Positions 33,979 to 58,551 of a stretch of 58,551 nt of DNA are shown here, piece after piece; the stretch's first letter is position 1, and each line of letters begins with the position of its first letter. The notes under the pieces are model-generated. The model saw only the letters and a list, made by a program, of their open reading frames with translations. It ran no database searches and had not been told where the DNA came from. The translations under genes and the position numbers were made by a program. The DNA comes from Cellulosimicrobium cellulans (GTDB lineage Bacteria; Actinomycetota; Actinomycetes; Actinomycetales; Cellulomonadaceae): assembly GCF_016921195.1 (NCBI RefSeq), contig NZ_JAFGYF010000016.1:1-58551 (forward strand), in the 5' to 3' direction.

Positions 33979-34173
33979 GCGATCTCCTCCCACGGTCGAT
34001 CCTTCCACGACGCCGGACGTCGCTCGGGTCGCTGCGATCGCTCGGTGAGAATCGAGCCGACACACCACAGGGTCGAGCGAAGGCGAAGGCATGGCGAAAG
34101 TCGTGCTGCGACAAGAGCTGTGACGGGTCCACCGCCGATCTGGGCCGTTCGCACCGGTCAGATGGGGCGATGC

Positions 34174-34588
34174 GGACGAGCCGGTCTGTACGCCGGGTTC
34201 TGTTCCCGCGCGAGGTCACCCTCGCGCGGGCGACGGTCATCCATCTAGGCCCTGCGTCGCCGCAGGGCTCGAGCGGTCTACCCGACTGTGCTTCTCCGTG
34301 GAGAATCGGGCGGGCAGCCCTCAGACACAGTCTGTCTGACCTTGCTCCAGGTGGGGTTTACCGAGCCGGACCGGTCACCCGGTCCGCTGGTGGTCTCTTA
34401 CACCACCGTTTCACCCTTACCGCACCGGGTCAGGCCGAAGCCCTTCCCGACGCGGCGGTCTGTTCTCTGTGGCACTGTCCCGCGGGTCTCCCCGGGTGGG
34501 CGTTACCCACCACCTTGCCCTTCGGAGCCCGGACGTTCCTCGGCGAGGGACCGAGGCCCCTCGACGCGACCGTCCGACCGACTCGTCC
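34174..34588 (-). ncRNA. rnpB: RNase P RNA, bacterial class A
   Basis: RNA subunit of RNase P, which matures tRNA 5' ends. The RNA strand shows the conserved 5' core GAGGAACGTCCGGGCTCC (near 34540-34520), GGTAACGCCC, the central ACAGAGAACAGACCGCCG, and the 3' AGAACCCGGCGTACAG. The termini GGACGAGTCGGTC (5') and GACCGGCTCGTCC (3') pair as helix P1 with one G-U wobble, which fixes the ends at about 34588 and 34174 (415 nt). A TAATCT -10 sits 9 bases upstream of the 5' end. It is divergent from the HelR-like gene. Confidence 0.93.
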
Positions 34589-41844: not shown

Positions 41845-42584
41845 GCGCCGGCGCCCTCCGGCCGCACGACGATGTGGCCGTAGTCCTCGAGCCGCACCAC
41901 CTGGTCGGGCGCCGCGGACGTGATCGCCGCGAGCTCGGCCGGGCTCAGCGAGACGTTGAGCCCGTCGACGTGCTGGCCGCGCAGCGCGACCACGCCACGG
42001 CCGCCGTTCTGGTCGCGCACGCGCTCGTAGAGGGCGAGGAGCGCGGCATCGAGGCCCGCGACCGCGTCGGTGCGCTTGGCCGCGACCTGGCCCGCCTCGG
42101 CGTCGAGCTCGGCATAGCGCGCGTCGCGCGCAGCCACGACCTCGGCCCTCGCGGCCTCCAGCTCGGCGTTCGCCGACTCGAGCTTCGCGAGCGCCTCCTC
42201 GTGCGCCTCGAGGCGCTCCATGACGTCGAGCTCCACCTCCTCGAGCACTCCCTGGCGCCGTGCGAGGGACTCGAGCTCCGCGACGAGCGCCTGCGCGTCC
42301 TTGGCACCGACCTGCCCCGAGTCGAGCCGCGACTGGTCGCGCGCGGCGCGCGTGCGCACCTGCTCGACGTCGGTCTCCGCCTTGGTGAGCTCGCGCTTGA
42401 GGTCGCTCACCGCGGTGCGGGACTCGACGAGCTTGCCGCGCAGGTCCGCGATCTGGGCGTCGAGCTCGGCGATGCGCGCGTGCTCGGGCAGGTTCTTGCG
42501 CTGGTGCGCGAGCTGCTGCGCCCGCGTGTCGAGCTCCTGGACGTCGAGCAGGCGGAGCTGGTCGGCGGACGGTGCAGTGGCCAC
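41841..42584 (-). CDS. Zinc-ribbon family coiled-coil protein that has lost its cysteines
   Basis: 247-residue protein of the CT398/zf-RING_7 family, always found beside nif3 and rnhA in actinobacteria. Residues 10-185 form a long coiled coil (RTAVSDLKRELTKAETDVEQ and similar). The C-terminus should carry a four-cysteine zinc ribbon. Here the aligned positions read LRGQHVDGLNVSLSPAEL and VRLEDYGHIVVR, with no cysteine in the whole protein. The fold may persist without metal. In relatives it is thought to be a chaperone-like adaptor; the function is not established. The ATG at 42584 follows nif3 by about 50 bases. Confidence 0.88.
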   Translation of the reverse strand: MATAPSADQLRLLDVQELDTRAQQLAHQRKNLPEHARIAELDAQIADLRGKLVESRTAVSDLKRELTKAETDVEQVRTRAARDQSRLDSGQVGAKDAQALVAELESLARRQGVLEEVELDVMERLEAHEEALAKLESANAELEAARAEVVAARDARYAELDAEAGQVAAKRTDAVAGLDAALLALYERVRDQNGGRGVVALRGQHVDGLNVSLSPAELAAITSAAPDQVVRLEDYGHIVVRPEGAGA

Positions 42585-42636: not shown

Positions 42637-43647
42637 TCAGGCGGACGGGGCGTCGGGGTCGGGCCGGTCGGGGCGCGGGTCCGCGGGCGGCTCGGCGGGC
42701 GCCGACGAGATCCGTGCGGTCCACGGGTCCGTGACGAGCGTGCTCACGCGCGTCTCGACGCTCGTGCCGGGGTGCGCGCGCGCGAGGGCGCGCGCGAGGT
42801 CCTCGGCAGCGTAGCGGAGCCAGGGCCACTCGGAGGCGTAGTGCGGCACGTCGACGAGGAAGGGCGTCCCCGCGTCGCCGTCGCCCTCGAGCCGGGCTCG
42901 CTCGCGCAGCTCCGAGACCGGGTGGTGGCGCAGGTCGGACGTGAGGTAGACGTCGGCGCCGCTCGCGCGGACGGCGTCGAACAGCGAGTCGCCCGAGCCA
43001 CCCACGACGGCGACCGACTCGACGGTCGCGTCGAGGTCGCCCGCGACACGCACGCCCTGGACCGTGGGCGGGAGCACCTCCGCGACGCGCTGCGCGAAGC
43101 CGCGCAGCGTCGTCGGCTCCGCGAGGCGGCCCACGCGACCGGTGCCGGTGCGCGGCGCCTCGCGCGGCGACAGCGCCGGGTGCGCGACGAGCGGCACGCG
43201 GTGCAGCAGGTCGAGGGCGTCCGCGAGCGCGTCGGCGACGCCGCGCTCCGCCGCGTCGGCGTTCGTGTGCGCGACGTACAGACCGCACCCGCCCCGGATG
43301 AGCCGGTGCACGAGCGAGCCCTTGAACGTCGTGGCCGCGACCGAGTGCACGGGGCGCAGGAACAGCGGGTGGTGCGTGACCAGGAGGTCCGCACCCCAGG
43401 CGAGCGCCTCGTCCGCGACCTCCTCGACCGGGTCGACGGCGAACAGCACCTTGCGCACGGGCGCGCTCGGGTCCCCGGCCACGAGCCCGACGGCGTCCCA
43501 GGCCTCGGCCGTCGACGGCGGGTACAGCTCGTCCAGCGTCCGCACGACGCGACCGAGCGTCGGGGGCACGGCGCCGTCGGCCGCCGGGTCAGTGCGAGGC
43601 GTGTCGGTGGACGACGTGTCGGTGCTCGGGTCGGGCGCGACGGTCAT
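42637..43647 (-). CDS. Nif3-like dinuclear metal centre protein
   Basis: 336-residue Nif3/YbgI-family protein (often annotated GTP cyclohydrolase I type 2-like). Metal ligands are visible in LVTHHPLFLRP (two His), VAHTNAD (His, Asp) and the C-terminal DVPHYASEWPW (His, Glu). An N-terminal 30-residue Thr/Asp/Pro-rich extension and an acidic proline-rich C-terminal tail are extra. The biochemical role is unsettled. It is the first gene of the nif3 - zinc-ribbon - rnhA operon. The start follows a TAGCCT leaderless promoter. Confidence 0.92.
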   Translation of the reverse strand: MTVAPDPSTDTSSTDTPRTDPAADGAVPPTLGRVVRTLDELYPPSTAEAWDAVGLVAGDPSAPVRKVLFAVDPVEEVADEALAWGADLLVTHHPLFLRPVHSVAATTFKGSLVHRLIRGGCGLYVAHTNADAAERGVADALADALDLLHRVPLVAHPALSPREAPRTGTGRVGRLAEPTTLRGFAQRVAEVLPPTVQGVRVAGDLDATVESVAVVGGSGDSLFDAVRASGADVYLTSDLRHHPVSELRERARLEGDGDAGTPFLVDVPHYASEWPWLRYAAEDLARALARAHPGTSVETRVSTLVTDPWTARISSAPAEPPADPRPDRPDPDAPSA

Positions 43648-45137: not shown

Positions 45138-46835
45138 TCACTTCGCCTCGGCGTAATGGTCGACGACCGCGACGGTGAGCGGGAAGTCGACCGGGAACTC
45201 CCCGAAGAGGAGGCGCCCCGCCTCCGCCGCGGCCGCACGGACTTCGTCGGCCACCGCCTCGGCGAGCTCGGCCGGCGCGTGCACGACGACCTCGTCGTGG
45301 AGGAAGAACACGAGGTGCGCCCGGTCGGCGAACGGCGCGGGCGCGGCGCCCGGGTTCGACGCGACGGGCAGGTCCCACAGCCGCCGGCGGATCGAGGCGA
45401 GCCAGCACAGCGCCCACTCGGCCGCCGTGCCCTGCACGACGAAGTTCCGCGTGAATCGGCCCCACGCGCGGGTGTACGACCGGGCGCGGGCCTGCGCGTC
45501 CGCGCCCGTCCGGCTGCTTCCGACGTCGTCCGCGCCGCCCTCCTCGACCGCGTAGGCGCCCTCCTGGGCCGCCTGCCACGACTCGCCGGGCCGTGGGGAG
45601 CTGCGACCGAGGAGGGTCGACACCACCTCGCCGCGCTCGCCCGCCTGCGCGGCGCGCTCCACGAGGCCGATCGCGTCGGGGAACGCCTTCGCGAGCCGCG
45701 GCAGGACGAGCGCGCTGTCGCCCGTCGTGCCTCCGTACATCGCGCCGAGCATCCCGACCTTCGCGTGGTCGCGGGTCGCGACCGCTCCCGAGGCGACGAT
45801 GCCCGCGTACATGTCGCCCCCGCGTCCCGCCGCCGCCATGCGCTCGTCGTGGGCGAGCCCAGCCAGCACGCGCGGCTCGAGCTGCGCGGCGTCCGCGACG
45901 ACGAGCTTCCAGCCCGGGTCGGCGACGACCGCGCGGCGCACCTGCTGGGGGAGCTGCAGCGCCCCGCCGCCGCTCGACGACCATCGGCCGGTGACGACGC
46001 CACCCACGACGTACTCGGTGCGGAACCGCCCGTCGCGGACCCAGGCGTCGAGCCAGGACCAGCCGTTCGCGGTGAGGAGCCGCGAGAGCTTCTTGTACTC
46101 GAGCAGGGGCTCGACGACGGGGTGGTCCGTGCGCTCGAGCTCCCACTTGCGCAGCGAGCGCACGCCGACGCCCGCATACTGCAACGCCTTGAGCAGGTCC
46201 GGGTGCGAGTCCGGGTTGAGGCTCGGCGGCGCGTCGAGCGCCGTGCGGATGCGCGCGACGAGGTCCTCCATGAGCGCGGGGCGCTCGCCGGGACGCGGGC
46301 GCGGGCCGAGCGCGTCCGTGAGGATCGCGTCGTGCACGTCGACGCGCCACGGGACGCCCGCGTGGTGCATCTCCGCCGCGACGAGCGCCCCCGCCGACTC
46401 GGCGGCGAGGAGCATCCGGAGCCGCCCTGGTCCGTCGGGACCGTCGGCGCCCGCGACCGCGGCGAGCTGGTCGCGCAGCTCCGCCACCGTGTCGAGCTCG
46501 ACAGGCGGCGCGTCCTGCGGCCCGAGCTCGAACAGACCGACGGGACGCGGCGCGGACGTCGGCTCGCGGCCCGCGGGCACCGCGGCGAGCGCGTCCCACG
46601 GCCCCGGGTCGCGCCGCGCGAGCACCGATCCCGCGGCGAGCTGCGAGCGACGCAGCACCACGTGGCACAGGCGCAGGTCGTGCGAGCGCTCGACGCGCCG
46701 GCCCTCGGCGAGGAGGCGCGGGTACCACCGGTTCGTGTCGTCCCATGTCTCGCGGAAGGGCTCCGCGGGGCCGTCGACGACGTGCTCGACCCGGCCGTGC
46801 TCGGGCGACCCGACGTGGACGGCGTAGGTGCTCAT
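45138..46835 (-). CDS. Family A DNA polymerase-like protein without a recognisable exonuclease site
   Basis: 565-residue protein of the group annotated as bifunctional 3'-5' exonuclease/DNA polymerase. The C-terminal half keeps all Pol I catalytic motifs. Motif A is DAAQLE (D315, E320), motif B R355-K359-L363-Y367 in RDHAKVGMLGAMYG, and motif C HDE at 513-515. The residue equivalent to E. coli F762 is leucine. I find no D-x-E exonuclease motif in the first 200 residues, so proofreading is doubtful, and no 5' nuclease domain is present. The ATG overlaps the SWIM gene stop by four bases, making it the last gene of the MoxR-DUF5682-VWA-SWIM operon. Confidence 0.88.
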   Translation of the reverse strand: MSTYAVHVGSPEHGRVEHVVDGPAEPFRETWDDTNRWYPRLLAEGRRVERSHDLRLCHVVLRRSQLAAGSVLARRDPGPWDALAAVPAGREPTSAPRPVGLFELGPQDAPPVELDTVAELRDQLAAVAGADGPDGPGRLRMLLAAESAGALVAAEMHHAGVPWRVDVHDAILTDALGPRPRPGERPALMEDLVARIRTALDAPPSLNPDSHPDLLKALQYAGVGVRSLRKWELERTDHPVVEPLLEYKKLSRLLTANGWSWLDAWVRDGRFRTEYVVGGVVTGRWSSSGGGALQLPQQVRRAVVADPGWKLVVADAAQLEPRVLAGLAHDERMAAAGRGGDMYAGIVASGAVATRDHAKVGMLGAMYGGTTGDSALVLPRLAKAFPDAIGLVERAAQAGERGEVVSTLLGRSSPRPGESWQAAQEGAYAVEEGGADDVGSSRTGADAQARARSYTRAWGRFTRNFVVQGTAAEWALCWLASIRRRLWDLPVASNPGAAPAPFADRAHLVFFLHDEVVVHAPAELAEAVADEVRAAAAEAGRLLFGEFPVDFPLTVAVVDHYAEAK

Positions 46836-49000
46836 GCGCGCACCGCCCGCTGGTCCGACCGGGGCTCGCGGGACGAGGCCACGGCCCGCGCCAGGGCGCG
46901 ACCCCGCGAGGCGACGAGCGCCGCGCGCAGGAGGCGCGCGGCGTCAGGCTCGTGGGTGACGAGCGCGACCGCACCCGCGAGGGTCGGCGCCCCGAGGTCG
47001 TCCGCGGTCCGCGCCGCGCGGTCGAGCGCGGCCCGCTGGTGAGGGCTGAGGTGTCGGCGGCCGGTCGCCGCGAGCGCCACGGCGGTGTCGAGCACCGTGG
47101 CGCAGACGTCCTCGACGGGGGGCGGCGCCGCGACCTCGTGCACCTGGGTCGCGGCTCGCCCGCGCAGCGCGCGGACGCGAGCACGCAGCCTGGTCCACGC
47201 GCTCGACCAGGCGCGATGGTCGTAGGCCGGCGTGAGCGTCGGCACGACGAGCCCGAGCGCTCCCCCGGGGCCCTGGACGAACAGGCCGATCGCCTGGGAC
47301 CCACGCGTCTCGAGGTCGTGCTCGACCGCGACGGCGACAAGTCGGCGGCTCCCCGCTGCGACCCCGAGCAGGGCGTCGCAGGCCGCCTCGTCCGACGCAT
47401 CGACGCGCACGACGGTCGGCGTGCCGTCCGCCGCGACGAGGGTCCAGGTGATCTCCTGCGCGACCTCGTCGACGCCGACGGGGCCCGCGTCCCGGACCAT
47501 GACGACTCGCACCACGGCCGGCCGGCGGCCGAAGCCCACCTCGGCCCGTGCGTCGGTCCCCGCGGTCCGCTCGGCGACGTCGCGCAGCGCATCGGCGGTC
47601 AGCGTCCCGAGCGGTTCCACGACCGGGCCCTCGCCGGGGCGCAGCACCCCGGCCCGCTCGGTCGCCCCGCGCAGAGCGAACGGGCCGCGGCACAACGCCT
47701 CGACGGAGCGGCCCCAGACGAGCGGGAGGTCCCACGAGCGGCGGAACGTCGGGTCGGCGCCGGGCGGCCGTCCGGTGGTGACCGCCCGTGTCGCCCCGGC
47801 GACGGCGTCCCACAGGTGCACGGTGACGCCCCGTGCGCCCGACGCCGCGACCCACCAGCGCGCCCCGAGAGGGACGAGGTGCGGGAGGTCCGTCACGCGC
47901 TCGTCGGGCGCCGCAGCGTCCGGCGCGGGCTCGGCCCGCACGAACGCCCAGAGCTCTGCCAGCGCGAGCAGGCACTCCTCCTCGTCCACGGCGTCGCGAC
48001 GGTCGGCGAGCGCCTCGAGCCGCCCGAGCGCGGACGTGACGAGCCGTTGCACCGCGGGCCGGCGACCCAGCCGGGCGACCACGCCGGCGCCCCGCAGCTC
48101 CTCCAGGTCGTCGCGGCCGAGGTGCGAGAGCCCGACGTCGAGCACCCGCTCGACCGCGCCCGCGACCTCGTCCGCGACCGTCCTGGCGTCCGGCACCCCG
48201 GCGGCGCGCGGCGCGGGGGCAGTCGTCTCCTCGGGCCACGGCCAGGAACGGCCGTGCGCATCCCAGACCCGGGCGAGCGCCTCCAGACGCCACCGCCGGT
48301 CGTCCGACGCGCGCCCCGTCGGGGACGTGACGCCGGTGCGCTCGCGCTCGACCAACATCCCGGCGAACCCGGCCCCCGCGACGTACGTGACGCGCGGGGC
48401 GTCGGGCCAGGAGACCACCACGCGGGGACCGTCCACCGTGACGTCCGTCGGGCCGCCGCGCGTCGTCGCCTCAGCCTGCTCCCGCTCCTGCGCGACCGCG
48501 CGCACGACGGCGGTCCCGGCAGCGCGGTGTACCCCGCGCGGGTCGAGCGCGAGGACCTCGCCCAGCGGGTCGGCCCGCAACCCGGTGCCGGGACCGGCAT
48601 CGGCATCGGCATCGGCGAGAGTGCCCGCTGGCCCTCGCGTCACCGCCGGGTCGCCGCGGACCGCCGCGACCGGCTCCACGTGTCCGGTCACCGCCTCTAC
48701 CACCGACTCGGCCGCCGTGTCGCGCGCCCACAGGCACGCGGCCACGACGTGCTGGCACGCGCCCGGCGTCGGGCACGCGCATCGCGCACCGGCCGGGCCG
48801 CGCGCGTCGAGCTCGACGCGTGCGCCCCCGACCGACAGCACCGCCCCGTCCGCGCGCTGCTCCACCACCGCGACCTTGCCCGCGGCGACGTCCTTGCGCG
48901 CGCGACGGACCAGGCCGGCGTTGGCGAGCGTGGCGAGCCCGGCGTCGTCGTACCCCGCGTACACCGCCGCCCACGGGCCGAGCCCCGGGGTGTCGCTCAC
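46832..49000 (-). CDS. SWIM zinc finger protein (YehQ-like)
   Basis: 722-residue protein. The SWIM motif C-x-C-x5-C-x-H is at residues 74-84 (C74, C76, C82, H84), inside RCACPTPGACQHVVAA. SWIM fingers bind DNA or proteins. The remaining 600 residues form a large alpha/beta region without another named domain; a repeated aspartate tract (ADADADAG) lies near 135. GTG at 49000 overlaps the VWA gene stop by two bases, and its own stop overlaps the polymerase start. The equivalent gene of E. coli is yehQ. Confidence 0.85.
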   Translation of the reverse strand: MSDTPGLGPWAAVYAGYDDAGLATLANAGLVRRARKDVAAGKVAVVEQRADGAVLSVGGARVELDARGPAGARCACPTPGACQHVVAACLWARDTAAESVVEAVTGHVEPVAAVRGDPAVTRGPAGTLADADADAGPGTGLRADPLGEVLALDPRGVHRAAGTAVVRAVAQEREQAEATTRGGPTDVTVDGPRVVVSWPDAPRVTYVAGAGFAGMLVERERTGVTSPTGRASDDRRWRLEALARVWDAHGRSWPWPEETTAPAPRAAGVPDARTVADEVAGAVERVLDVGLSHLGRDDLEELRGAGVVARLGRRPAVQRLVTSALGRLEALADRRDAVDEEECLLALAELWAFVRAEPAPDAAAPDERVTDLPHLVPLGARWWVAASGARGVTVHLWDAVAGATRAVTTGRPPGADPTFRRSWDLPLVWGRSVEALCRGPFALRGATERAGVLRPGEGPVVEPLGTLTADALRDVAERTAGTDARAEVGFGRRPAVVRVVMVRDAGPVGVDEVAQEITWTLVAADGTPTVVRVDASDEAACDALLGVAAGSRRLVAVAVEHDLETRGSQAIGLFVQGPGGALGLVVPTLTPAYDHRAWSSAWTRLRARVRALRGRAATQVHEVAAPPPVEDVCATVLDTAVALAATGRRHLSPHQRAALDRAARTADDLGAPTLAGAVALVTHEPDAARLLRAALVASRGRALARAVASSREPRSDQRAVRA

Positions 49001-50241
49001 GGGAGCACCTCCCCCAGCCACTCGGCGAACCGCTCCGGCGTGAGAGCCGCGATCTCCATGCCCTGCTCCGCGAGCCGACGGGCGACGCCGCGGTCGTACG
49101 CGGGGTTCGCCTGACCGTCGAGCGCAGCGAGGCCGAGCAGCCGCACGCCGGACGTGTGCAGCCGCCCGACGCTCGCCACGAGCTGCGACACCGAGCCGCC
49201 CTCCTCGAAGTCGGTGACGAGCGCCACGACGGTCCGGCGCGGGTCGCGCACGTGCTGCTCGGCGTAGCGCACCGCACGGGCGATGTCAGTGCCGCCGCCG
49301 AGCTGCGCCGTGAGGAGCACCGTCACGGGGTCGTGCGCGAGGTGCGACATGTCGACGACGGACGTGTCGAACAGCACCAGCCGCACCGTGATGCCGGGCA
49401 GCCCCGCGAGGATGCCGGCGCTCACCGCGCTGTACAGCACGGACGAGGCCATCGAGCCGGACTGGTCGACGAGCAGGACCACGTCGTACGACAGCGCGCG
49501 CCGTCGCCGGGCCGAGAACCGGAGGTCCGTGACGAGCAGGCGGCGCCGCTCCGGGTCCCAGCGTCCGAGGTTCGCGCGCACGGTCGCGGCCGCGTCGAAC
49601 GTGCGGCTCGAGCGCACGAACGAGCGGCGCGTCCGGTCGCGACGCCCGTCCACGGCGGTCTCGAAGCGCGGGCGCAGGCGCCGCACGACGTCCTCCACGA
49701 CGCGCGCGACGAGCCGCTTGAGGCCGTCCTGCACGCCGGGCCCGAGCCGACCCCGGGCGCGCAGCAGCGCAGAGGCCAGCTCCGTGCTGGGCTCGACCGC
49801 GTCGACGGCGCGCGGGTCCGCGAGCAGCTCCGTCATCCCGTACCGGCCCACGGCCTCGACCTGCATGCGCTCGAACGTCTCGCGCGGGAACAGCTCACGT
49901 GCCGACTCGAGCCAGTCCAGGCCCGCCACGACCGAGCCCCCTCGCCCGCCGCCGCCGCGCCCGGCGCGGGAGTCGTCGCCGTCGCCGTGCCGGTGCCCAC
50001 GGGCGGTGTACTCGCGGTCGTACAGGTGGCCGAGCGTCCGGTCGAGGCGCTGGTCCTGCGGCGAGACGGGCAACGCGTCGCCCGCGTAGCGGCCGAGCAC
50101 GAGCCGCCACCGGCGCGCGACCTCGTCGTCGTCCGCGCGGCTCCGGGCAGGCCCTCCCACGGCAGGCCCGAGCCCGTGGCGCGGGGTCCCGCTCGACGTC
50201 GCGGCCGGCTGGTCCGCCGTGCCGGCACTCGCGGCCGTCAC
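48997..50241 (-). CDS. VWA domain protein (YehP-like)
   Basis: 414-residue protein. The C-terminal von Willebrand A domain has a complete MIDAS metal site: DQSGS at 259-263, T318 in GGGTDIARA and D344 in VTDFEEGG. The N-terminal 240 residues are helical with a glycine/arginine-rich, low-complexity insert (82-103). VWA proteins of this kind pair with MoxR ATPases, which act on them or their targets to assemble complexes. GTG at 50241 overlaps the DUF5682 stop. Confidence 0.9.
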   Translation of the reverse strand: MTAASAGTADQPAATSSGTPRHGLGPAVGGPARSRADDDEVARRWRLVLGRYAGDALPVSPQDQRLDRTLGHLYDREYTARGHRHGDGDDSRAGRGGGGRGGSVVAGLDWLESARELFPRETFERMQVEAVGRYGMTELLADPRAVDAVEPSTELASALLRARGRLGPGVQDGLKRLVARVVEDVVRRLRPRFETAVDGRRDRTRRSFVRSSRTFDAAATVRANLGRWDPERRRLLVTDLRFSARRRRALSYDVVLLVDQSGSMASSVLYSAVSAGILAGLPGITVRLVLFDTSVVDMSHLAHDPVTVLLTAQLGGGTDIARAVRYAEQHVRDPRRTVVALVTDFEEGGSVSQLVASVGRLHTSGVRLLGLAALDGQANPAYDRGVARRLAEQGMEIAALTPERFAEWLGEVLP

Positions 50242-52748
50242 GACGCTCCCCCGCGCGCCCAGGCCCCGAGGCCGTCGCGCTCCAGCACCGCGACGAGCTC
50301 GCGCTCGACGAGCAGCCCCGCGCGCAGGTCGTCCTCGGTCACGTCGACGTGCCGGTCCAGCGCGGCGGCGCTCGTCCCCGTCCGTGCCGCGACGCGCTCC
50401 GCGAGCCGGTGCGTCTCCGTCGACCGCAGCCATGTGAACGCCCGCCGCAGGTCCGGCAGCACGGCACGGAACGCGGCCTCGTCCAGGCCGCGGAGCCCGT
50501 CGTCGACCGCGTCGAACATCTCGGGGGTGTGGAGCAGGAGGTCGGGCGCGGCACGCATCACGCCGCCGAGGAACGCCGTCGCCGCCACCGGGTCCGCGCC
50601 CGGCGCGAGGTGCGCCCGAATACGCGTGACGAGGCCGTCGCTGCCCGGCTCGTCGTCGAGCTCGCCGTCGACGGCGGCGAACGCCGTGAGCGCGCCGCGC
50701 ACCGCGGGCGACGCGTCCTCGTCCTCGCGGACCTGCACGAGCGCCCGGGCGACGGACTCCGCCGCCGAGCCGGCTCCGTCACGACCTGCGTCGCGCAGGT
50801 CTCGGACCAGGGAGCGCAGCGCGACGAGGTTCGACAGCGCGTCGTCCTGCGTCGCCTCGTCGGCGGCCGCGAGGTCGGGCACGAGGTAGGCCGCGGTGGC
50901 GAGGCCCTGCTCCGCGAGGTCGAGCAGGGCCACGGAGTGCTCGCCGAGCTCGAGCTCGGCGCGGGCGCGCCAGAGCCCCACGAGGCGCCGCATGCCGCCC
51001 ACCACCGAGGCGAGGGACGGGTCGACGTCGAGCGTGGAGCGGACGAGCGCGACGAGCGGGGGCAGCCGGTCGGGCAGGCCCACGACGACGCACTGCGCGA
51101 CGAGCCGCGCCACCGCGTCGCTCGACCGCTCCTCGCGCGCCCGGTCGCGCGCGTCGTCGAGCAGCGCCACGGCGACCGCCTCGAGCGTCGCGCCACGGTG
51201 CGACAGCTCGACGAGCCGCGCCTCGACGAGCGGCGTCCACGCGTACTCCCACTCCTCGAGGACGAGGCCGAGCCCGCGCCCGGCGACGTGGTCGGGGCCG
51301 GAGACGCGGCGCGCGAAGCCAAGATCGAGGAACGCGCACAGCGCGAGGAACCGGCGGCGATCGCGGTGCGCGGACCTGCGTCGCGCATGGAGCCGCGCGG
51401 TGCGCGGCACGGAGTCGGACACCTCCAGGCGCAGCGCCCGCGCGCGCGAGCGTGCCTCCTCCACGAGCGGCGGGGCCGCGCCACCGGGCGGCACGTCGCC
51501 GAGCGCGTGCCCGGCGAACACCTCCGCGACCGCGAGCCCGAGCGGCCGGTCACCCGCGGCGTCGAGGTCGTCGGGGTCCCTGACGTAGCAGGACGTGATC
51601 GCGTCGAGCAGGTCCGTGCGGCACGGCCACGGCCGTCCACGCAGCGCCGCGAGCCGGTGGGCGTGCTCGACGGCGGCCTGGGACTGCGCGACGCTCACGA
51701 GCGCACCACGCGCGCTCGCCCCACGCCCGACGTCCACGAGGACGCCGTTCGCCGCGCCCGCGGGACCGCCCGCGTCGTGGTGGGCGGCCCAGAGCCGGTC
51801 GTAGTACCCCGGGGTCGGCATGCCGGCGCCGTACCCACGCAGCGCGTCGAGCCGCTCGTCGTCGTACCGCACGAGCCACGCGGGGGCGTCGGCCAGGCCT
51901 CCGTAGCCGCCGGCCGGGCGACGCGCGACGACCGCCTCGCCGTGCGCGCTCCCGGTGAGCGCCTCGACGAGGGGCAGCGTGTGGAACGCGCCCGTCACGA
52001 CGACGACCGGCCCGTCCGCGCGCGCCGCGTGCTCGGCGACGCGCGCCGACATGCGCGCCTCCCGGTCGAGGGACCCGTCCGCGACGAGCACCTCGTCCTC
52101 GTAGTCCAGGCGCGCGAGCGCCGCCCACGCGAACACGTCGTCGGTGAGCTCGCGCCAGTCGCGCAGGCGCGCGGTGTCCCGCGCCTCGAACAGGTGGTCC
52201 CACAGCTCGTCGTGGTCGCGGCACCCGAGGCGCTCCGCGAGGCGGGCGACGGTGCGCGAGTGCGCGAGGTGCCGCTCGGCGAGGACGGTACGCGCGGTCG
52301 GGTCGTCGGGCCCGTCCTCCTCCCCCGAGGCCCGCGCCGCCCACGGCGAGTCGACGAACGCGAGCTCGGCGCCGAGAGCGTGCCCCGCCCGGAGCGCGAC
52401 CCACTCGGGCGAGTACCGCGCGAGCGGGTAGAACCCGGCGCCGCGCGTGCCGCCTCTCGCCGCGCCCGTGGGATCGCCGGCGAGGCTGAGGACGGCGACC
52501 GGCGGGACCGTGCGCTCGTCGAGCAGCGCGGGCAGGAGCCGCGTGTACTCCTCCGGCCCCTCGACGAGCACGACGGCGGGCCAGACCTCCTCGATCAGGG
52601 CGGCCACGGCGACCGCGCACGCCGGGCTGTGGTGGCGCACGCCGACCAGGTGCACGCCGTCGCGCTCGCGGAGGGTGACCAGGTCCTGCACCGCCTGCCG
52701 CAGCCGGGGCGGCGCGGCGTCCCACGCCGCGCGCAGGCCTAGCGCCAC
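50238..52748 (-). CDS. DUF5682 family protein (YehM-like)
   Basis: 836-residue cytosolic protein. The N-terminus VHLVGVRHHSPACAVAVAAL with LVEGPEEYTRLLPAL resembles the TraB/ChaN-type start of DUF5682, where the GxRHHSP block is invariant. The rest is a long helical region ending RLAERVAARTGTSAAALDRH. No enzymatic activity is proven for DUF5682; the histidine pair suggests metal binding. GTG at 52748 lies inside the end of the AAA gene (10-base overlap). Confidence 0.85.
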   Translation of the reverse strand: MALGLRAAWDAAPPRLRQAVQDLVTLRERDGVHLVGVRHHSPACAVAVAALIEEVWPAVVLVEGPEEYTRLLPALLDERTVPPVAVLSLAGDPTGAARGGTRGAGFYPLARYSPEWVALRAGHALGAELAFVDSPWAARASGEEDGPDDPTARTVLAERHLAHSRTVARLAERLGCRDHDELWDHLFEARDTARLRDWRELTDDVFAWAALARLDYEDEVLVADGSLDREARMSARVAEHAARADGPVVVVTGAFHTLPLVEALTGSAHGEAVVARRPAGGYGGLADAPAWLVRYDDERLDALRGYGAGMPTPGYYDRLWAAHHDAGGPAGAANGVLVDVGRGASARGALVSVAQSQAAVEHAHRLAALRGRPWPCRTDLLDAITSCYVRDPDDLDAAGDRPLGLAVAEVFAGHALGDVPPGGAAPPLVEEARSRARALRLEVSDSVPRTARLHARRRSAHRDRRRFLALCAFLDLGFARRVSGPDHVAGRGLGLVLEEWEYAWTPLVEARLVELSHRGATLEAVAVALLDDARDRAREERSSDAVARLVAQCVVVGLPDRLPPLVALVRSTLDVDPSLASVVGGMRRLVGLWRARAELELGEHSVALLDLAEQGLATAAYLVPDLAAADEATQDDALSNLVALRSLVRDLRDAGRDGAGSAAESVARALVQVREDEDASPAVRGALTAFAAVDGELDDEPGSDGLVTRIRAHLAPGADPVAATAFLGGVMRAAPDLLLHTPEMFDAVDDGLRGLDEAAFRAVLPDLRRAFTWLRSTETHRLAERVAARTGTSAAALDRHVDVTEDDLRAGLLVERELVAVLERDGLGAWARGGAS

Positions 52749-53875
52749 AGGTCGCCCGCCGCGGTGAGGAAGTCCTTCCAGCGCGCGTCGGACCGCGCGC
52801 GCTCACGCACGACGTTGTCGACGTAGTGCCGCAGCCGGCGCGCGTCCTCCTCGTCGCCCTTGAGCGCGACGCCGCCCACCTGGCGCGCGACCTGGCCCGC
52901 GGTGACCGTGCCGTCGCCCAGGTACCGCGCCTCGAGCGACGCCGCGACCGCGACGTTCACGGCCTCGGCCGTCGACATCACCGTCTCGGGCCGCTTGACC
53001 GGGGCGCCGCTCGCCGTCGTGCCCGTGCGCAGGTCCTGGAAGACCGTGACGAGCACCTCGAGCACGTCGCGGTCGAGCCGCGGACGCTCCGAGGCCGGGC
53101 CGAGCTCGGCCGTGAGCCGGCTCTCGACGAGCTCCATCTCGAACGCGCGGTCCCGGATGGGCCCGACGGTCTCGAAGTTGAAGCGACGCTTGAGCGCCGC
53201 CGACATCTCGTGGACGCCGCGGTCGCGCAGGTTCGCCGTCGCGAGCACGTTGAAGCCGGGACGGGCCGCGACGCGCGCGTCGGCGCCGAGCTCGGGGACC
53301 ATGAGCTGCTTCTCCGAGAGCACGGACACGAGGGTGTCCTGGATCTCGGGCGCACAGCGCGTGATCTCCTCGAACCGCGCGATCCGCCCGCTCTCCATCG
53401 CCCGGTAGACCGGCGAGGGGACGAGCGAGCGCTCGCTCGGTCCCTCGGCGATGAGCAGGGCGTAGTTCCACGAGTAGCGCACGTGGTCCTCGCTCGTGCC
53501 CGCGGTGCCCTGGACCGTGAGGGTCGAGGTGCCGCTCGCGGCGGCGGCGAGCAGCTCGGACAGGAGCGACTTCGCGGTGCCCGGCTCGCCGACGAGCATG
53601 AGTCCCTGGCGGCCCAGCAGCGACACGACCGCGCGGTCGACGAGCGGGTCGTCGCCGAAGAACTTGCGGCTCACGCCCAGCTCGGCGTCGCCCACGACGA
53701 ACGCGCGGACCGCGCGGGGGCTCAGGCGCCATCCGGGCGGGACGTCGGCGCCGCGCCGCGCGTCCGCCTCGGCGAGCGCCGCGAGCTCGTCGGCGTACCG
53801 GACCTCGGCGGGCGGCCGCAGCTCGCCCGGTCCTCCGGCCGCGACCTGCGCATCACCGGTCGTCGTGCTCGTCAC
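52739..53875 (-). CDS. MoxR-type AAA+ ATPase (YehL-like)
   Basis: 378-residue AAA+ ATPase. Walker A is GEPGTAKS at 96-103. The Walker B position reads ARFEEITRC, with the usual Asp-Glu replaced by Glu-Glu (169-170). Sensor 1 is in FNVLATANLRDRGVHEMS, and ALKRRFNFETV holds the arginine finger region. This is the MoxR layout, remodelling partner VWA proteins. It is the first gene of a five-gene overlapping operon. GGAGGAG lies 5 bases before the GTG, and TACGCT about 55 bases upstream is a likely promoter. Confidence 0.92.
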   Translation of the reverse strand: MTSTTTGDAQVAAGGPGELRPPAEVRYADELAALAEADARRGADVPPGWRLSPRAVRAFVVGDAELGVSRKFFGDDPLVDRAVVSLLGRQGLMLVGEPGTAKSLLSELLAAAASGTSTLTVQGTAGTSEDHVRYSWNYALLIAEGPSERSLVPSPVYRAMESGRIARFEEITRCAPEIQDTLVSVLSEKQLMVPELGADARVAARPGFNVLATANLRDRGVHEMSAALKRRFNFETVGPIRDRAFEMELVESRLTAELGPASERPRLDRDVLEVLVTVFQDLRTGTTASGAPVKRPETVMSTAEAVNVAVAASLEARYLGDGTVTAGQVARQVGGVALKGDEEDARRLRHYVDNVVRERARSDARWKDFLTAAGDLWR

Positions 53876-53928
53876 CCGGGCTCCTCCTTCGTCGGGTCGC
53901 GGGCGCCGTGCCCGTGGTCCTGCAGGTC

Positions 53929-53934
53929 AGCGTA
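53929..53934 (-). promoter_or_regulatory. Candidate -10 element of the MoxR-VWA-SWIM-polymerase operon
   Basis: TACGCT on the minus strand, about 55 bases before the ATPase start and downstream of the two hairpins that end DUF4132. Confidence 0.45.
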
Positions 53935-53956
53935 GGAGCCGCGTCCCACACGACGG

Positions 53957-54025
53957 GCGGTGCGGGCGCCGCCACCCGGCGCCCGCACCGCGCCGTACCG
54001 GTCGGCCCTGGTGCGGGCCGACCGG
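53957..54025. terminator. Tandem hairpins between DUF4132 and the MoxR gene
   Basis: This gap separates DUF4132 from the downstream ATPase on the same strand, before which two stems form: 14 bp (53957-53970 with 53978-53991) and 11 bp (53998-54008 with 54015-54025). They probably end or attenuate DUF4132 transcription, so the operon may be under separate control. Confidence 0.65.
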
Positions 54026-54030
54026 GACGG

Positions 54031-57000
54031 TCAGTACTGGCTCTTGCGCTCCCAGTCGGGGTCGAAGGCGCCCGCCTCGGCGACGGCGACGTAGTCGCGG
54101 TACGCCTCCGCGACGAGCACGGGCGGGAGGTCCGCGATCCGCGCGGTCCCGCGACCCGACCCGCGGCCGGTCCGCTCGAACGTCAGCGCGGTCACCGCGG
54201 CCGCGATGTTCTCCTCCGGGACGAACGACCCCGTGAACTCGATCTGCACGACGATCCCCGCGCTCGCGAACGACTTCGTGTACGCGCTGAACCACCCGGC
54301 GTCCTCCGCCTGCGAGCGCGTGTAGCCGCGCTTGGTGGCGCGCCCCCGGATGGAGAAGCTGTCGGAGAACCAGCCCTTGTGGTCGTCGATCGCCGTCGCG
54401 CCCGCCGGGACGTCCGGCGTCGCGACGTCGAGCTGCGCGAAGAGCGGGGTGACCTCGTAGTCCGTGAGGTGTGCCGCCCACGCGGCCGTGGCTTCCGGAC
54501 CGAGCAGCACCGCGTGGGCGAGACCGACCGTCGAACCCTCGCCGAGCTCGACGTCCTCGTCGTCCGCGTCGACGAGCGCGCCGCCGTCGGGACGGAACGG
54601 GCGAGCCTCGTCCGTGCCAGGGTTCTCGACCCACACGAGCCGCTCGACGAGCCGCGACATCACCGGGTGACCGAGCAGGTACTCCTGCCACTCCTGCGCG
54701 GTCCAGGTGCGGCCCACGCACATCGCCTCGTAGAGCCGCTGCGTCTGGAGCGTGACGACCGCCTTGAGCTCTCTGCGGCTCGCGGTGAGCTGCTTCTTCG
54801 CGGCCGCGACGAGCTCGGGGTCGTCCTGCGCCCGCGCGGCCGGGAGCGCCTTGACGACCTTGCCCGCGTCGCTCGTGAGCTCGAGCGTGAACGCGGGCGT
54901 GATGCGCCCTACGTACTCGCGCGACCCGAGGTCGAGGTGGAGCAGGCCGTCGTCCTCGAAGCCCGCCGTCTGCACGGTCCGGTCCGCGAGCTGGTCGGCG
55001 GTCCAGCCGCGCCGGTCCGCGAGCTCGGCCGCGAGGCGCTGCGCCGTCTCCTGCACCGTCGCCTGCCGGAAGCGGCGCGAGACCGCCAGGAGCTCCTGGA
55101 TCGCCGCAGGCTGCCCGTTCGCCGCGAGCGCGTGGACGAGCGCCTCGGTCTGCGCCCGGCGACCGACGTGCGCCTTCGCGTAGCGCTGGAACGTCGCGGC
55201 GAGCTCGCCGCCCGGCATCGCGACGGTGAGCGCGAGCATGCCCTTGTCCTTGACCGCCGAGCCGAGGTAGGTCGCCTGGTGCTCCCGGTAGAGGTCGCGG
55301 TGGTGGTCCTCGACCGTCTTGGATGCCTCGACCGAGTAGTACTCCGGCGAACGCTTGGCCCACGCCTGGTACTGGTCGTAGCGCAGCTGTGCCCCCGCGG
55401 CGGCGTACGCGTCGCTCTCCTGCGGCGACGGGTTGCGCGTGTCCTGCGCGACCCAGGAGCTGAGGACGTGCGCACCGAGCCGAGCGCGGTCCTCCTCCTG
55501 GAGGAGGGAGAGGTACCGCTCGAGGAGCCCGGCACCGCTCGGGTCCTTGAGCTTGACCGCGAGCACGACCCACCAGCGCAGGATCGCGGGGTCCACCGGT
55601 GAACCGTCCGCGGCCCAGCGCGCGTCGGGCAGGGAGCCCAGGTCGAACCACGCCATGCTCACCGGGGCCTTGGCGCGCAGGCCCTTGGTCGCCTCGGCGA
55701 GCAGCGCCGCCGGTGCGAGGTCGACCGAGATGTCCTCGCCGAGGCTCTCGAGGGAGGTGAGGAGCGCCGCCCGGACGACCTCGCTGCGCTCCTTCGCGAG
55801 AGCGGCCCGCAGTGCGGGGACCGCGCCCGCGTCACCGAGCCGGGCGAGCCACTCCGCCGCGGTCCGGCGCACCTCCGACCGGCCGTTCGCGAGCCCCTGC
55901 TCGGCCAGTCCCCGCACGCCGGGGTGGGTGCTCAGCGCCTCCTGCGCCGTTGCGCGGTAGGTGCGGCCCTCGCCGAGCGCGAGCTCGGTCAGTCGCGGCA
56001 GGAACCGGCGCGGGACGTGCGGGAGCTGCGCGAGGACCGCGAGCGCCCGGGCAGGTTTGGTGGTGCCGTAGGTGCGCTCACGGTCGTCGAGCGCCGCGGC
56101 GAGCCGGTCGAGCCGACCCGCGTAGTACGGCCACGCGTTCTCGGGCGTCACCGTGTCGGTCGCCCACCACGACGAGAAGTACAGCTGGTCGATCAGCGCC
56201 TCGGCGTCGTCGCGACCGATGCGCCGCAGCGCCTCGTCGAGGACGCGCAGGTCGACGTCGAGCATGTCGCCCTCGTTGAGCCGGTGCCAGCCGAACCGCT
56301 CGCTGTGGCCGCGCGCCTCGTTCGCCTGCAGCCGCAGCCGGTGCAGCAGGGTGACGCCAGGGAGGCGCGAGAAGACGCCCGGTGCCGACAGCCGGCGCAT
56401 CGCGACGCCGCCGGGACGACGGGTGCTCGTCCCGGACAGGAACGCCGCGAAGACCCGGAGGTCCTCGTCGGTGATGCCGGGCAGCTCCTTGAGGTCCTGC
56501 TCGACGGCCAGGCGCCGCCACCGCGGCCACCCGTCGTCGTCCTTCCTGCCGGGGTGTGCCGCCTGCTCGGCTCGGGCCCGTTCGAGGGCGGTGTCGATCG
56601 CGGCCCGCGCGGCCTGCACGAACTCGTCGCCGAGAACCGTCTCCGGCAGCGGCTCGAAGGGCGGCACGTCGATCTCGGGCTCGTCGTCCCGCGCGGCGTC
56701 GAGCACGCGGGCGCGCTCGACCGTGTCGCGCAGGAGCGTTGCGCGTGCCCCGGTCGACTGCTCGGCGGCCTGCTCGAGGTCGGCCAGCCCGCCGTCGACC
56801 TCCGCGAGACGCGTCACGACCGCCCCGAGCCGGGCCGGCGCGAGGACCGTGAGGAGCGGGGTGAGGATCTCGCGCTGGCGCTCACCGGGGAGCTGCGCGA
56901 CTGCGGCGACCGCCGCCTCGCGGACCCCCTTGCTCGTGTCCGCCGCAAGCCGCGCCAACAGCGGGGCGAGCGCGTCCGTCGCTTCCGCGTCGCCCGCGAC

Positions 57001-57759
57001 GAGCTCGACCAGCTCCGTCCGGCCGGCCGCGCTCACGCCCGGCAGCGCCTGCGTCGCGACGTCGACGTGCGCGACCACGAACTCGCGCGCCGGGGCGCCG
57101 AGGAGCGCCGGGCCGAGGTGCCGCGAAGCCCAGCCCGCCGACGTCGGGCGCTCGAAGAGCTCGCGCAGCACGACCGCCGTCGCGTCCGCCTCCGGTACGC
57201 CGCCCTCGACCGCGAGCGCCAGCAGCAGGTCCGGCGTCCAGCGGTCCGGCGCGCCCTTCCCATTCTTGCCCCTGCGGCGGTCGCTCGCGCGCCGCGACAT
57301 GTCGTTGACCAGCACCGTGAGCCAGCGGGGGTCGGTGGTGCGCTCGCGGTCGACCTCCGACGACACGGCGCTGAGCACCCGGCCGAGCCGCACGAGCTCG
57401 GGGATCGTCACCGAGTCGCTCAGCGTGTAGAGGTTGGACCGGGCCGTGACGGCCTTCGCGGACGTCCAGCCCGGCACCGCGGCCTTGAGCCGGTCGTCCT
57501 GCGCGGGCGTCGTCCACGAGTAGACGCCCGACTGACCCGGCCGCCCCAGCAGCGCCTCGACGTCACCGCCGCGCAGCGCCTCGAGCTCCAACAGGACCTC
57601 CGGCCTCTCGCCCCGGTGCACGTAGGCGACCGCGCGGTCCGCGAGCCCGGGCGACTCGACGGCGAGCACCTTCAGCGCGTCGACGAGCCGAGCGCTCGGG
57701 CGGCCACCTCCCGCCTGCTCCTCGTCACGCCGGAACAGACCCTTGACCTTCTCGAGCAC
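54031..57759 (-). CDS. DUF4132 / HEAT-repeat protein (YehI-like)
   Basis: 1242-residue cytosolic protein. The N-terminal two thirds are helical repeats of HEAT type, clearest at about 590-720 (VLAQLPHVPRRFLPRLTELAL; TAAEWLARLGDAGAVPALRAAL). The C-terminal third is DUF4132, with GWTADQLADRTVQTAGF, EAMCVGRTWTAQEWQEYLLGHPVM and a closing DPDWERKSQY. E. coli YehI is a similar-sized DUF4132 protein upstream of yehL, but it also has an N-terminal WGR domain that I do not see here. GTG at 57759 is used, with GAGG 6 bases before it. Function unknown, probably a scaffold. Confidence 0.88.
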   Translation of the reverse strand: MLEKVKGLFRRDEEQAGGGRPSARLVDALKVLAVESPGLADRAVAYVHRGERPEVLLELEALRGGDVEALLGRPGQSGVYSWTTPAQDDRLKAAVPGWTSAKAVTARSNLYTLSDSVTIPELVRLGRVLSAVSSEVDRERTTDPRWLTVLVNDMSRRASDRRRGKNGKGAPDRWTPDLLLALAVEGGVPEADATAVVLRELFERPTSAGWASRHLGPALLGAPAREFVVAHVDVATQALPGVSAAGRTELVELVAGDAEATDALAPLLARLAADTSKGVREAAVAAVAQLPGERQREILTPLLTVLAPARLGAVVTRLAEVDGGLADLEQAAEQSTGARATLLRDTVERARVLDAARDDEPEIDVPPFEPLPETVLGDEFVQAARAAIDTALERARAEQAAHPGRKDDDGWPRWRRLAVEQDLKELPGITDEDLRVFAAFLSGTSTRRPGGVAMRRLSAPGVFSRLPGVTLLHRLRLQANEARGHSERFGWHRLNEGDMLDVDLRVLDEALRRIGRDDAEALIDQLYFSSWWATDTVTPENAWPYYAGRLDRLAAALDDRERTYGTTKPARALAVLAQLPHVPRRFLPRLTELALGEGRTYRATAQEALSTHPGVRGLAEQGLANGRSEVRRTAAEWLARLGDAGAVPALRAALAKERSEVVRAALLTSLESLGEDISVDLAPAALLAEATKGLRAKAPVSMAWFDLGSLPDARWAADGSPVDPAILRWWVVLAVKLKDPSGAGLLERYLSLLQEEDRARLGAHVLSSWVAQDTRNPSPQESDAYAAAGAQLRYDQYQAWAKRSPEYYSVEASKTVEDHHRDLYREHQATYLGSAVKDKGMLALTVAMPGGELAATFQRYAKAHVGRRAQTEALVHALAANGQPAAIQELLAVSRRFRQATVQETAQRLAAELADRRGWTADQLADRTVQTAGFEDDGLLHLDLGSREYVGRITPAFTLELTSDAGKVVKALPAARAQDDPELVAAAKKQLTASRRELKAVVTLQTQRLYEAMCVGRTWTAQEWQEYLLGHPVMSRLVERLVWVENPGTDEARPFRPDGGALVDADDEDVELGEGSTVGLAHAVLLGPEATAAWAAHLTDYEVTPLFAQLDVATPDVPAGATAIDDHKGWFSDSFSIRGRATKRGYTRSQAEDAGWFSAYTKSFASAGIVVQIEFTGSFVPEENIAAAVTALTFERTGRGSGRGTARIADLPPVLVAEAYRDYVAVAEAGAFDPDWERKSQY

Positions 57760-57762
57760 CCT

Positions 57763-58156
57763 CTACCTCGCCGTCACGTCGTCGCTGCTGGTGGGGCCGA
57801 TGCTAGGGGCGGGCGCCGACACGCCGTCGCCGCTGCTCAGGGGCAGGTCATCCGACGGGACGGCGTCCGGGTCGTCCAGGGGGAACCGAAAGCACTTCTG
57901 GCCCACGTTCCCGGGTGTCGGCACCAAGAAGTCGAGCCCCGGTCGCGTGTCGCACGACCACCGAGTCATCGTCAACCGCGACGACCCCCCTTCTCGACGT
58001 CGTCAACCCCGCCGAGGTGCAGCTCGTACCGGTCCAGGTCCGCGAGCTTCCACGACCAGCGCGGACCGTTCTGCCAGATGCCGCGGACCAGACCTGCCGC
58101 CGCACCGCGACGAGCACCGCCACGATCACGACGCCGTACCACTTCCTGTGGGCCAC
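57763..58156 (-). pseudogene. Decayed small membrane protein gene
   Basis: The coding signal moves through all three minus-strand frames. A hydrophobic start MAHRKWYGVVIVAVLVA (from GTG 58156) is followed in a second frame by IWQNGPRWSWKLADLDRYEL. A third frame then has CDTRPGLDFLVP and QKCFRFPLDDPDAVPSDD, ending at 57763. Each piece has natural composition and GC-ending codons, so at least two frameshifts have occurred. The hexamer before the start is CAGCCT, a leaderless -10 with its first base changed. Function unknown. Confidence 0.45.
57800..57805 (-). promoter_or_regulatory. Candidate -10 element of the DUF4132 gene
   Basis: TAGCAT on the minus strand, giving a leader of about 35 bases; it lies within the decayed gene. 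Confidence 0.35.
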
Positions 58157-58163
58157 GGCGTCA

Positions 58164-58186
58164 GGCTGATCGGTCGCAGATCAGCC
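58164..58186. other. 8-bp inverted repeat GGCTGATC/GATCAGCC
   Basis: A perfect stem with a 7-base loop directly upstream of the decayed gene. It may be an operator or a terminator remnant. The stretch from here to 58338 shows no gene but is locally AT-richer (about 58230-58260), a possible promoter zone for the DUF2510 gene. Confidence 0.35.
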
Positions 58187-58338
58187 GGCCTTGCGGAGTT
58201 CAGGACGTCGTCGTCACCCACCCGTCGGGCCATCGTGAGAAATCAAAGATCACCCATAAGAACGCGCAGCAAGACCGCGCAAAGGTGCGAGGATTACTGC
58301 ACTCGATCACGCGGCGACGCCCGAGCTCGGAGGTCACG

Positions 58339-58463
58339 TTGGACTCTGAACGATCCGACGCCACGCCGGCCGGGTGGTACCCCGGACCCGACGGGGTCGA
58401 GCGCTACTGGGACGGGACGGCATGGCTGGCGATCCCGCCGCCGCCGTCGGTACCTGCTCTAGC
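58339..58463 (+). pseudogene. DUF2510 protein gene cut by an insertion sequence
   Basis: TTG at 58339 has GGAGG 5 bases upstream and opens a frame with AGWYPGPDGVERYWDGTAWL, the DUF2510 motif found at the N-terminus of many actinobacterial membrane proteins. About 41 codons remain. At 58464 the frame enters the end of an IS481-type element. The rest of the gene, expected to be a membrane protein, is either beyond the element outside this window or lost. Confidence 0.7.
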
Positions 58464-58551
58464 TGTACTGACCGGACAGGTTGGTCAAGCGTGTGATGGG
58501 TGGCTTGTTCCCGCAGGCGGTGTGGGGACGGTGGTGGTTGTACTCGTGGAG
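58458..58551 (-). mobile_element. Left end of an IS481-family element with CTAG target
   Basis: The element appears to start with TGTACTGACC at 58464, next to TCTAGC (58458-58463). Bordetella IS481 inserts at NCTAGN and begins with TGT, so the junction fits. The other end and the target duplication are beyond the window. Confidence 0.65.
58459..58551 (-). CDS. IS481-type transposase, C-terminal fragment at the window edge
   Basis: The last 30 residues of a DDE integrase-type transposase: YNHHRPHTACGNKPPITRL followed by TNLSGQYS. The YN..RPH motif lies after the catalytic glutamate of the IS3/IS481 core, which is outside the window. The stop codon TAG is part of the CTAG target sequence at 58459-58462, outside the element end. 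Confidence 0.8.
   Translation of the reverse strand, partial: LHEYNHHRPHTACGNKPPITRLTNLSGQYS

Follow-up and report, generated by a model that had tools for sequence, protein, structure and literature searches.

A YehL-type MoxR-VWA gene cassette with a predicted TIKI-fold protein beside a resident DNA polymerase gene in Cellulosimicrobium

Introduction

Among the closest described relatives of the locus studied here is the yeh locus of Escherichia coli K-12 MG1655, annotated in the order yehI (encoding a DUF4132 protein; presumably the same gene as molR), yehK, yehL (MoxR ATPase), yehM, yehP (VWA protein), yehQ (SWIM protein) and yehR. The five families of yehI, yehL, yehM, yehP and yehQ stand in that order on one strand in a stretch of 58,551 nucleotides from Cellulosimicrobium cellulans (contig NZ_JAFGYF010000016.1), hereafter the window, which is one whole contig of a 4.58-Mb draft genome. 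In E. coli, yehK separates yehI from yehL and yehQ is not followed by a polymerase gene, whereas in the window no gene takes the place of yehK and the SWIM gene is overlapped by a gene for a family A DNA polymerase. The best overall explanation, to which we give a probability of roughly 0.6, is a YehL-type cassette with a TIKI-fold hydrolase, beside which lies an unrelated polymerase gene.

YehL is one of seven MoxR subfamilies, and no function is given for it in the portion of the describing article consulted (PMC3893208). The MoxR protein of the window stands where YehL does in loci of yeh type, and its assignment to this subfamily, made from locus and homology and not from a tree, is a putative one. 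Another related group is that of the MoxR-vWA ternary conflict systems, in which, according to the consulted portion of PMC7159879, a MoxR and VWA core is joined by further components, an arrangement shared by the window. However, VMAP, iSTAND, FtsH and beta-propeller components were not found in the cassette proteins (Pfam, E<=0.001 and over cut-off), and the bpMoxR model (PF20030) gives 22.8 bits with the MoxR protein, under its cut-off of 27; moreover, SWIM, YehL, YehM and DUF4132 are not mentioned in the consulted main text of PMC7159879. The TIKI superfamily includes ChaN, HopBA1, BcR135/Ere and RRSP (PMC6254334, consulted in part). Its fold is predicted for the N-terminal domain of the DUF5682 protein, in which a His, a Glu and a second His are invariant; the protein differs in that one Glu of the 2His/2Glu set is missing, in its long helical-repeat C-terminal half and in its MoxR-VWA gene context. 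As for the polymerase, it scores over the cut-off of the PRK14975 family (NF011538) with its polymerase motifs intact, but the family is named 'bifunctional 3'-5' exonuclease/DNA polymerase' and the exonuclease residues appear to be absent in 66 aligned rows. A literature search, with most subscription journals outside its reach, revealed neither an article on what the cassette does nor an assignment of DUF5682/YehM to TIKI.

Results

The five cassette genes (the SWIM gene being recognised by its motif) and the polymerase gene are all on the same strand of the window:

54031-57759, minus strand: DUF4132 protein of 1242 amino acids, yehI equivalent and first cassette gene (PF13569, 129.5 bits, 1.7e-37), with a HEAT_2 match (PF13646, 5.7e-07)
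52739-53875, minus strand: MoxR AAA+ ATPase of 378 amino acids, yehL equivalent (AAA_5, PF07728, 1.6e-37)
50238-52748, minus strand: DUF5682 protein of 836 amino acids, yehM equivalent (PF18934, 330 bits, 3.3e-98)
48997-50241, minus strand: VWA protein of CoxE type, 414 amino acids from a GTG start at 50241, yehP equivalent (PF05762, 7e-45)
46832-49000 (GTG at 49000) or 46832-49021 (listed start of the open reading frame, an upstream GTG), minus strand: SWIM zinc-finger protein, yehQ equivalent (motif CACPTPGACQH)
45138-46835, minus strand: PRK14975-family, family A DNA polymerase (NF011538, 2.6e-211)

An earlier, sequence-only reading of this DNA had named these genes, on one strand and with stop/start overlaps, and all the genes were located as it claimed, the last five overlapping by 4-10 bases. 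The overlaps are 10 bases between MoxR and DUF5682, 4 bases (GTGA) between DUF5682 and VWA, 4 bases between VWA and SWIM if SWIM starts at the GTG at 49000 (25 if it starts at the upstream one) and 4 bases (ATGA) between SWIM and the polymerase, while the end of DUF4132 is separated from MoxR by a gap of 155 bases. Its equation of the gene order with yehI-yehL-yehM-yehP-yehQ was also confirmed, with the small gene yehK sitting between yehI and yehL. The SWIM zinc finger that it named is present as a CxCx(n)CxH motif (CACPTPGACQH), which recurs in the related locus L139, but not as a Pfam match, PF04434 scoring 13.8 bits (E 0.045), below the cut-off of 19.6. The VWA protein has a DxSGS sequence which, judged by eye, resembles a metal-ion-dependent adhesion site. 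When compared with the sequences of solved structures, the MoxR protein matched only midasin chains at E<=0.001, and the DUF5682 and SWIM proteins had no match at E<=1. The DUF5682 protein shares 94% identity with a protein of Cellulosimicrobium cellulans (P0001).

Conservation of the group across phyla, another claim of that reading, is borne out by a survey of 80 named loci with DUF5682, which come from several phyla. Using the window proteins as tblastn queries (E<=1e-4), in the best 80 of 554 DUF5682 loci we found MoxR near DUF5682 in 79, VWA in 76, DUF4132 in 75 and SWIM in 74, where some contigs end inside the cassette and the SWIM count is that of either method (tblastn gave 72 and a stricter motif 71). 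A looser motif, searched for downstream of VWA or DUF5682, gave 66/80; it missed the loci in which VWA-SWIM comes first and its hits probably arose by chance in at least one case (L168). The gene order varies: VWA-SWIM stands ahead of DUF4132 in some of these loci (e.g. L155, L168), and DUF4132 stands behind SWIM in others (e.g. L161, L188). Furthermore, DUF5691 replaces DUF4132 in Streptomyces (L133), on a Deinococcus plasmid and on a Hymenobacter plasmid (L230 and L243 among the loci), and a SWIM gene was seen in the Streptomyces and Deinococcus loci of this type. The DUF4132-MoxR-DUF5682-VWA-SWIM cassette is real, of YehL type and already known by content. As side observations, DUF4132 matches cover about 6-9 kb or two stretches in six loci (L143, L146, L176, L178, L179 and L198), which suggests tandem DUF4132 copies in some cassettes, and in two precomputed entries (P0015, from Nocardioides albus, and P0016) the DUF5682 and VWA_CoxE domains lie within a single protein.

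The clearest pointer to what the cassette may do comes from DUF5682. Because a structure search of the Protein Data Bank with the whole-length model was mostly filled by helical repeats, the N-terminal domain was folded separately, and the mean predicted local distance difference test score was 87.8 for the whole length and 87.7 for the domain alone. The N-terminal domain (about residues 1-270) has a predicted TIKI/Ere/ChaN fold with a parallel beta-sheet core (VIA-align), and the C-terminal half is predicted to be a helical repeat. In 140/140 DUF5682 rows, YehM included and with some genes repeated under two locus identifiers, His-His (H39/H40), Glu (E63) and Gly-x-x-His (H256) are invariant, while the place of the Glu expected two before the first His of the 2His/2Glu set is taken by V37/R38. 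On these models the TIKI fold is very probable, and that the protein is active as a hydrolase is somewhat favoured.

A different role for DUF5682 would follow if the cassette were a maturation chaperone, which inserts a metal into or activates one dedicated enzyme, with DUF5682 as a non-catalytic accessory scaffold. CoxD-CoxE is one chaperone pair of this kind. Another, NorQ-NorD, puts iron into nitric oxide reductase (PMC9976466, consulted in part), and the CoxE type of the VWA protein (PF05762) fits such a function, as does the reported necessity of the molR gene for molybdate use, given in a title cited in the consulted portion of PMC8533742. However, the loci read contain no recurrent gene for a metalloenzyme client (neighbours were not tabulated), and the invariant residues of DUF5682 look catalytic, so that we consider this explanation rather doubtful.

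The sequence-only reading had taken the polymerase coupled to the SWIM gene as a pointer to a DNA-directed role, and this claim failed, since near-adjacency of the two is confined to four genera, all belonging to one family. In the best 80 of the 554 named loci the polymerase lies near DUF5682 in eight, namely one of Cellulosimicrobium, two of Oerskovia, four of Promicromonospora and one of Antribacter; the same reading had proposed such a survey and held that a polymerase found beside the SWIM gene only in close relatives would be coupled to it incidentally, which is what the counts indicate. In a class-level sample of 148 genomes, PRK14975 was found over its cut-off in 42, DUF5682 in 31 and both in 23, and the two are side by side in one of these 23, the genome of the window itself, although the sample includes drafts and some of the 23 have the genes on different contigs, where adjacency is possible (the DUF5682 contigs of G037 and of one copy in G131 are shorter than 8 kb). 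The next nearest same-contig pairs are about 80-93 kb apart (G016, G087 and G141). A sample of 200 genomes of the window's own family contained DUF5682 in 54 and the polymerase over its cut-off in 182. DUF5682 was split by hidden Markov model score into class A, with high scores, and class B, which includes the window (and takes in genes reported in pieces, their class being assigned from the pieces). A distance of at most 10 kb to the polymerase was seen in 29 of 41 genomes for class B and in 0 of 17 for class A. By genus, class B was near the polymerase in Cellulosimicrobium (10/10), Oerskovia (7/7), Promicromonospora (10/10) and Antribacter (2/2). Nine of the twelve class-B genomes counted as not near have no polymerase on the contig of the class-B gene, G341 and G344 being without a polymerase over the cut-off, and the three distances that could be measured are 52, 83 and 118 kb.

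The junction itself is more restricted still. The 4-base SWIM/polymerase overlap (ATGA or GTGA) is present in 10/10 Cellulosimicrobium loci, that is, the window and 9/9 further ones, and in 0/12 loci of the other genera (five of Oerskovia, five of Promicromonospora and two of Antribacter), where the distance from the SWIM stop to the start of the polymerase homology is 231 to 4290 bases. In this space there is a gene for a carbonic anhydrase (L108) or for a GNAT acetyltransferase (L112) or, in Antribacter, several open reading frames (L114, whose SWIM stop is uncertain, at 10305 or 10821); in three loci of Oerskovia and two of Promicromonospora the gap is short, at 231-435 bases. The overlap is therefore a genus-level state, and the adjacency is a matter of the four genera.

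Relatives without the cassette bear most directly on the standing of the polymerase. In a Cellulosimicrobium sample, 7/17 genomes had no DUF5682 match and all seven kept the polymerase. Six of the seven loci were read (L102-L107; G289 was left out), and in all six the polymerase is followed by the NIF3 gene, with an AraC gene between them in L107, as in the window. Where the contig reaches, the two genes after NIF3 are also those of the window, so that the following block is conserved downstream of the polymerase:

42637-43647, minus strand: DUF34/NIF3 protein, encoded by the first gene on the polymerase's strand downstream of it (PF01784, 8.1e-68; synteny)
41841-42584, minus strand: gene continuing the polymerase-NIF3 block in conserved order, which we take to encode a C4 zinc ribbon protein
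40606-41844, minus strand: gene continuing the same block in conserved order, presumably an RNase HI-phosphoglycerate mutase fusion

On the other side, five of the six loci (L102-L106) carry, upstream of the polymerase, DNA with a match of about 72-87% to that found upstream of DUF4132 in genomes bearing the cassette; the upstream DNA of L107 gave no match to this flank. The flank was matched in six of eight bearers (Cellulosimicrobium G235, G276, G253 and G196; Oerskovia G251 and G206), and no match was obtained within about 39 kb in Promicromonospora G258 and G195. In G196 (L221, L246) about 30 kb of extra DNA separates DUF4132 from the conserved flank. Of three genera outside this group that lack the cassette at this position, two (L124 and L125; not L128) have the same flank. 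Since relatives without the cassette keep the polymerase and, mostly, the same flank, the cassette is a present-or-absent block next to a resident polymerase-NIF3 block. Either gain or loss could account for this pattern: a gene for a BrkB-type membrane protein lies between DUF4132 and MoxR in the bearer L099 (4437-5903) and, in the non-bearer L103 (10968-12269), immediately upstream of the polymerase gene. The locus counts, the genus-limited overlap, the retention of the polymerase without the cassette and the flank synteny together led us to reject the polymerase as a cassette component, and we hold with high confidence that it is not one. In eight loci with a polymerase and no cassette beside it, genes of which were called with a home-made caller, no shared polymerase neighbour was seen by eye.

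Two observations weigh against treating the polymerase as unrelated. Firstly, the overlap is held in all ten Cellulosimicrobium loci, where SWIM and the polymerase are likely co-translated and there may be co-expression. Secondly, co-occurrence in the class sample is above chance, the polymerase being present in 23/31 genomes with DUF5682 versus 19/117 others (p 1.8e-9). This reflects mostly families: both genes are present in 10/10 genomes of family f22 and 9/10 of f20, f23 has the polymerase in 9/10 and DUF5682 in none, and f21 has DUF5682 in 5/10 and no polymerase over the cut-off. Within the family of the window the difference is 52/54 versus 130/146 (p 0.16).

The overlap fixed in Cellulosimicrobium is one argument for regarding cassette and polymerase as one machine for repair or damage response, in which MoxR-VWA-SWIM would remodel a DNA-bound complex and pass the end to an exonuclease-less polymerase for gap filling. 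The intact polymerase residues of the enzyme are another. Its NF011538 score is 702.9 bits, where the cut-off is 389, motifs A, B and C are intact, and the residues equivalent to E. coli D705, Q708, E710, R754, K758, Y766, D882 and E883 are kept in 66/66 family rows (some genes being repeated under two locus identifiers, with L030 the window's own gene again), in agreement with the earlier claim of intact polymerase motifs. That claim's companion, the absence of the exonuclease, looks right from the alignment: the position of E357 is Glu in 0/66 rows (T in 60, A in 4, G in 1, a gap in 1), and no Asp is aligned at D424 or D501, although the poor N-terminal alignment makes the absence of the exonuclease less firm. 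On another contig the host carries its own PolA, a second DNA_pol_A match that scores more strongly. In addition, the position of E. coli F762 in the O-helix is Leu in 65/66 rows and Ile in one; Leu is unusual there for a family A polymerase. Against the repair machine stand the 72 of the best 80 of 554 named loci in which the polymerase was not found, its retention where the cassette is missing, and the sister-genus loci in which other genes part it from SWIM. Furthermore, no CGAACNNNNGTTCG site, a pattern which we take to be a LexA-type box, occurs with up to 2 mismatches upstream of MoxR (53876-54030) or DUF4132 (57760-58551), and SOS control of the cassette was rejected on this assumed pattern. 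The whole window has 77 CGAACNNNNGTTCG sites at up to 2 mismatches, above all 100 shuffles, the best five with 1 mismatch, and exact TCGAACNNNNGTTCGA is found in 2/228 loci. We therefore judge the combined repair machine improbable. Nevertheless, DRA0166 of Deinococcus radiodurans, which has DUF4132, is reported to be strongly upregulated on depletion of DdrO (PMC8533742, consulted in part), so that a stress role of DUF4132 independent of the polymerase is possible, and a role of the five-gene cassette itself in DNA damage or defence is likewise possible.

The cassette without the polymerase might instead be a mobile system for conflict or defence against phages that is not yet catalogued, with MoxR-VWA releasing the DUF5682 enzyme in response to a signal. 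MoxR-VWA pairs form the core of predicted conflict systems (PMC7159879, consulted in part), members of one genus either have or lack the cassette block at a single site, and DUF4132 matches are multiplied in some loci. Moreover, the whole cassette is carried by a mobilizable plasmid of Iodobacter (L229), near insertion sequence (IS) elements and adjoining type I restriction-modification genes, and by a conjugative plasmid of Sinorhizobium; on an IncF plasmid of E. coli the chromosomal yeh block lies near IS26. In the seven plasmid-collection loci read, of 35, no polymerase is annotated, the PLSDB gene tables being incomplete. However, DUF5682 occurs in only 35 of 72,556 plasmid-collection records, several of them chromosome-sized, and in 1 of 50,697 phage records; the E. 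coli cassette sits among ordinary chromosomal genes, and that of the window adjoins genes conserved in relatives. No PADLOC model matches any of the five cassette proteins (0/5), by which a catalogued anti-phage system was rejected; the match of the polymerase to RTasPolA (39.6 bits) is taken as generic PolA likeness. A conflict system thus remains a tentative alternative.

Two further features of the window were noted. At the contig end upstream of DUF4132, the reading frame at 58462-58551 (minus strand) is HRPHTACGNKPPI, which we take to resemble the C-terminus of an IS transposase. A bacterial RNase P class A RNA (283.5 bits) lies at 34173-34585 (minus strand).

Discussion

We propose that a YehL-type cassette with a TIKI-fold hydrolase works in the following way. 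By analogy with other MoxR-VWA pairs, the MoxR ATPase would form a ring that works with the CoxE-type VWA protein as its adaptor, and this pair may remodel or gate DUF5682, whose N-terminal TIKI-superfamily domain, with its His-His, Glu and Gly-x-x-His set, would be the hydrolase and whose C-terminal helices would be the scaffold; to this action of MoxR-VWA on DUF5682 we give even odds. The SWIM and HEAT-like DUF4132 proteins would provide recognition of a target or signal, and the output would be a regulated hydrolysis, perhaps of peptide or ester bonds, under some stress. The polymerase would be part of the older polymerase-NIF3 block, placed after SWIM by chance, and the gap between them would have closed to an overlap in Cellulosimicrobium.

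A broader picture, which we offer as speculative and on balance unlikely, is that a HEAT protein (DUF4132 or DUF5691) together with MoxR, DUF5682, VWA and SWIM makes up one uncatalogued, horizontally moving system that exists in two types and whose MoxR-VWA motor gates the TIKI-fold hydrolase against proteins of the cell or of an invader on a signal of stress or infection, and that Cellulosimicrobium is beginning to co-translate it with a resident exonuclease-less polymerase.

The comparison corrects a step of guilt by association, from an overlap of genes to a role in DNA transactions, and it illustrates how relatives without the operon can serve as the test of such a step. For the unexplained yehI-yehQ genes of E. 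coli, a MoxR-VWA machine that serves a hydrolase of TIKI fold would be a concrete biochemical hypothesis, open to trial in a laboratory strain.

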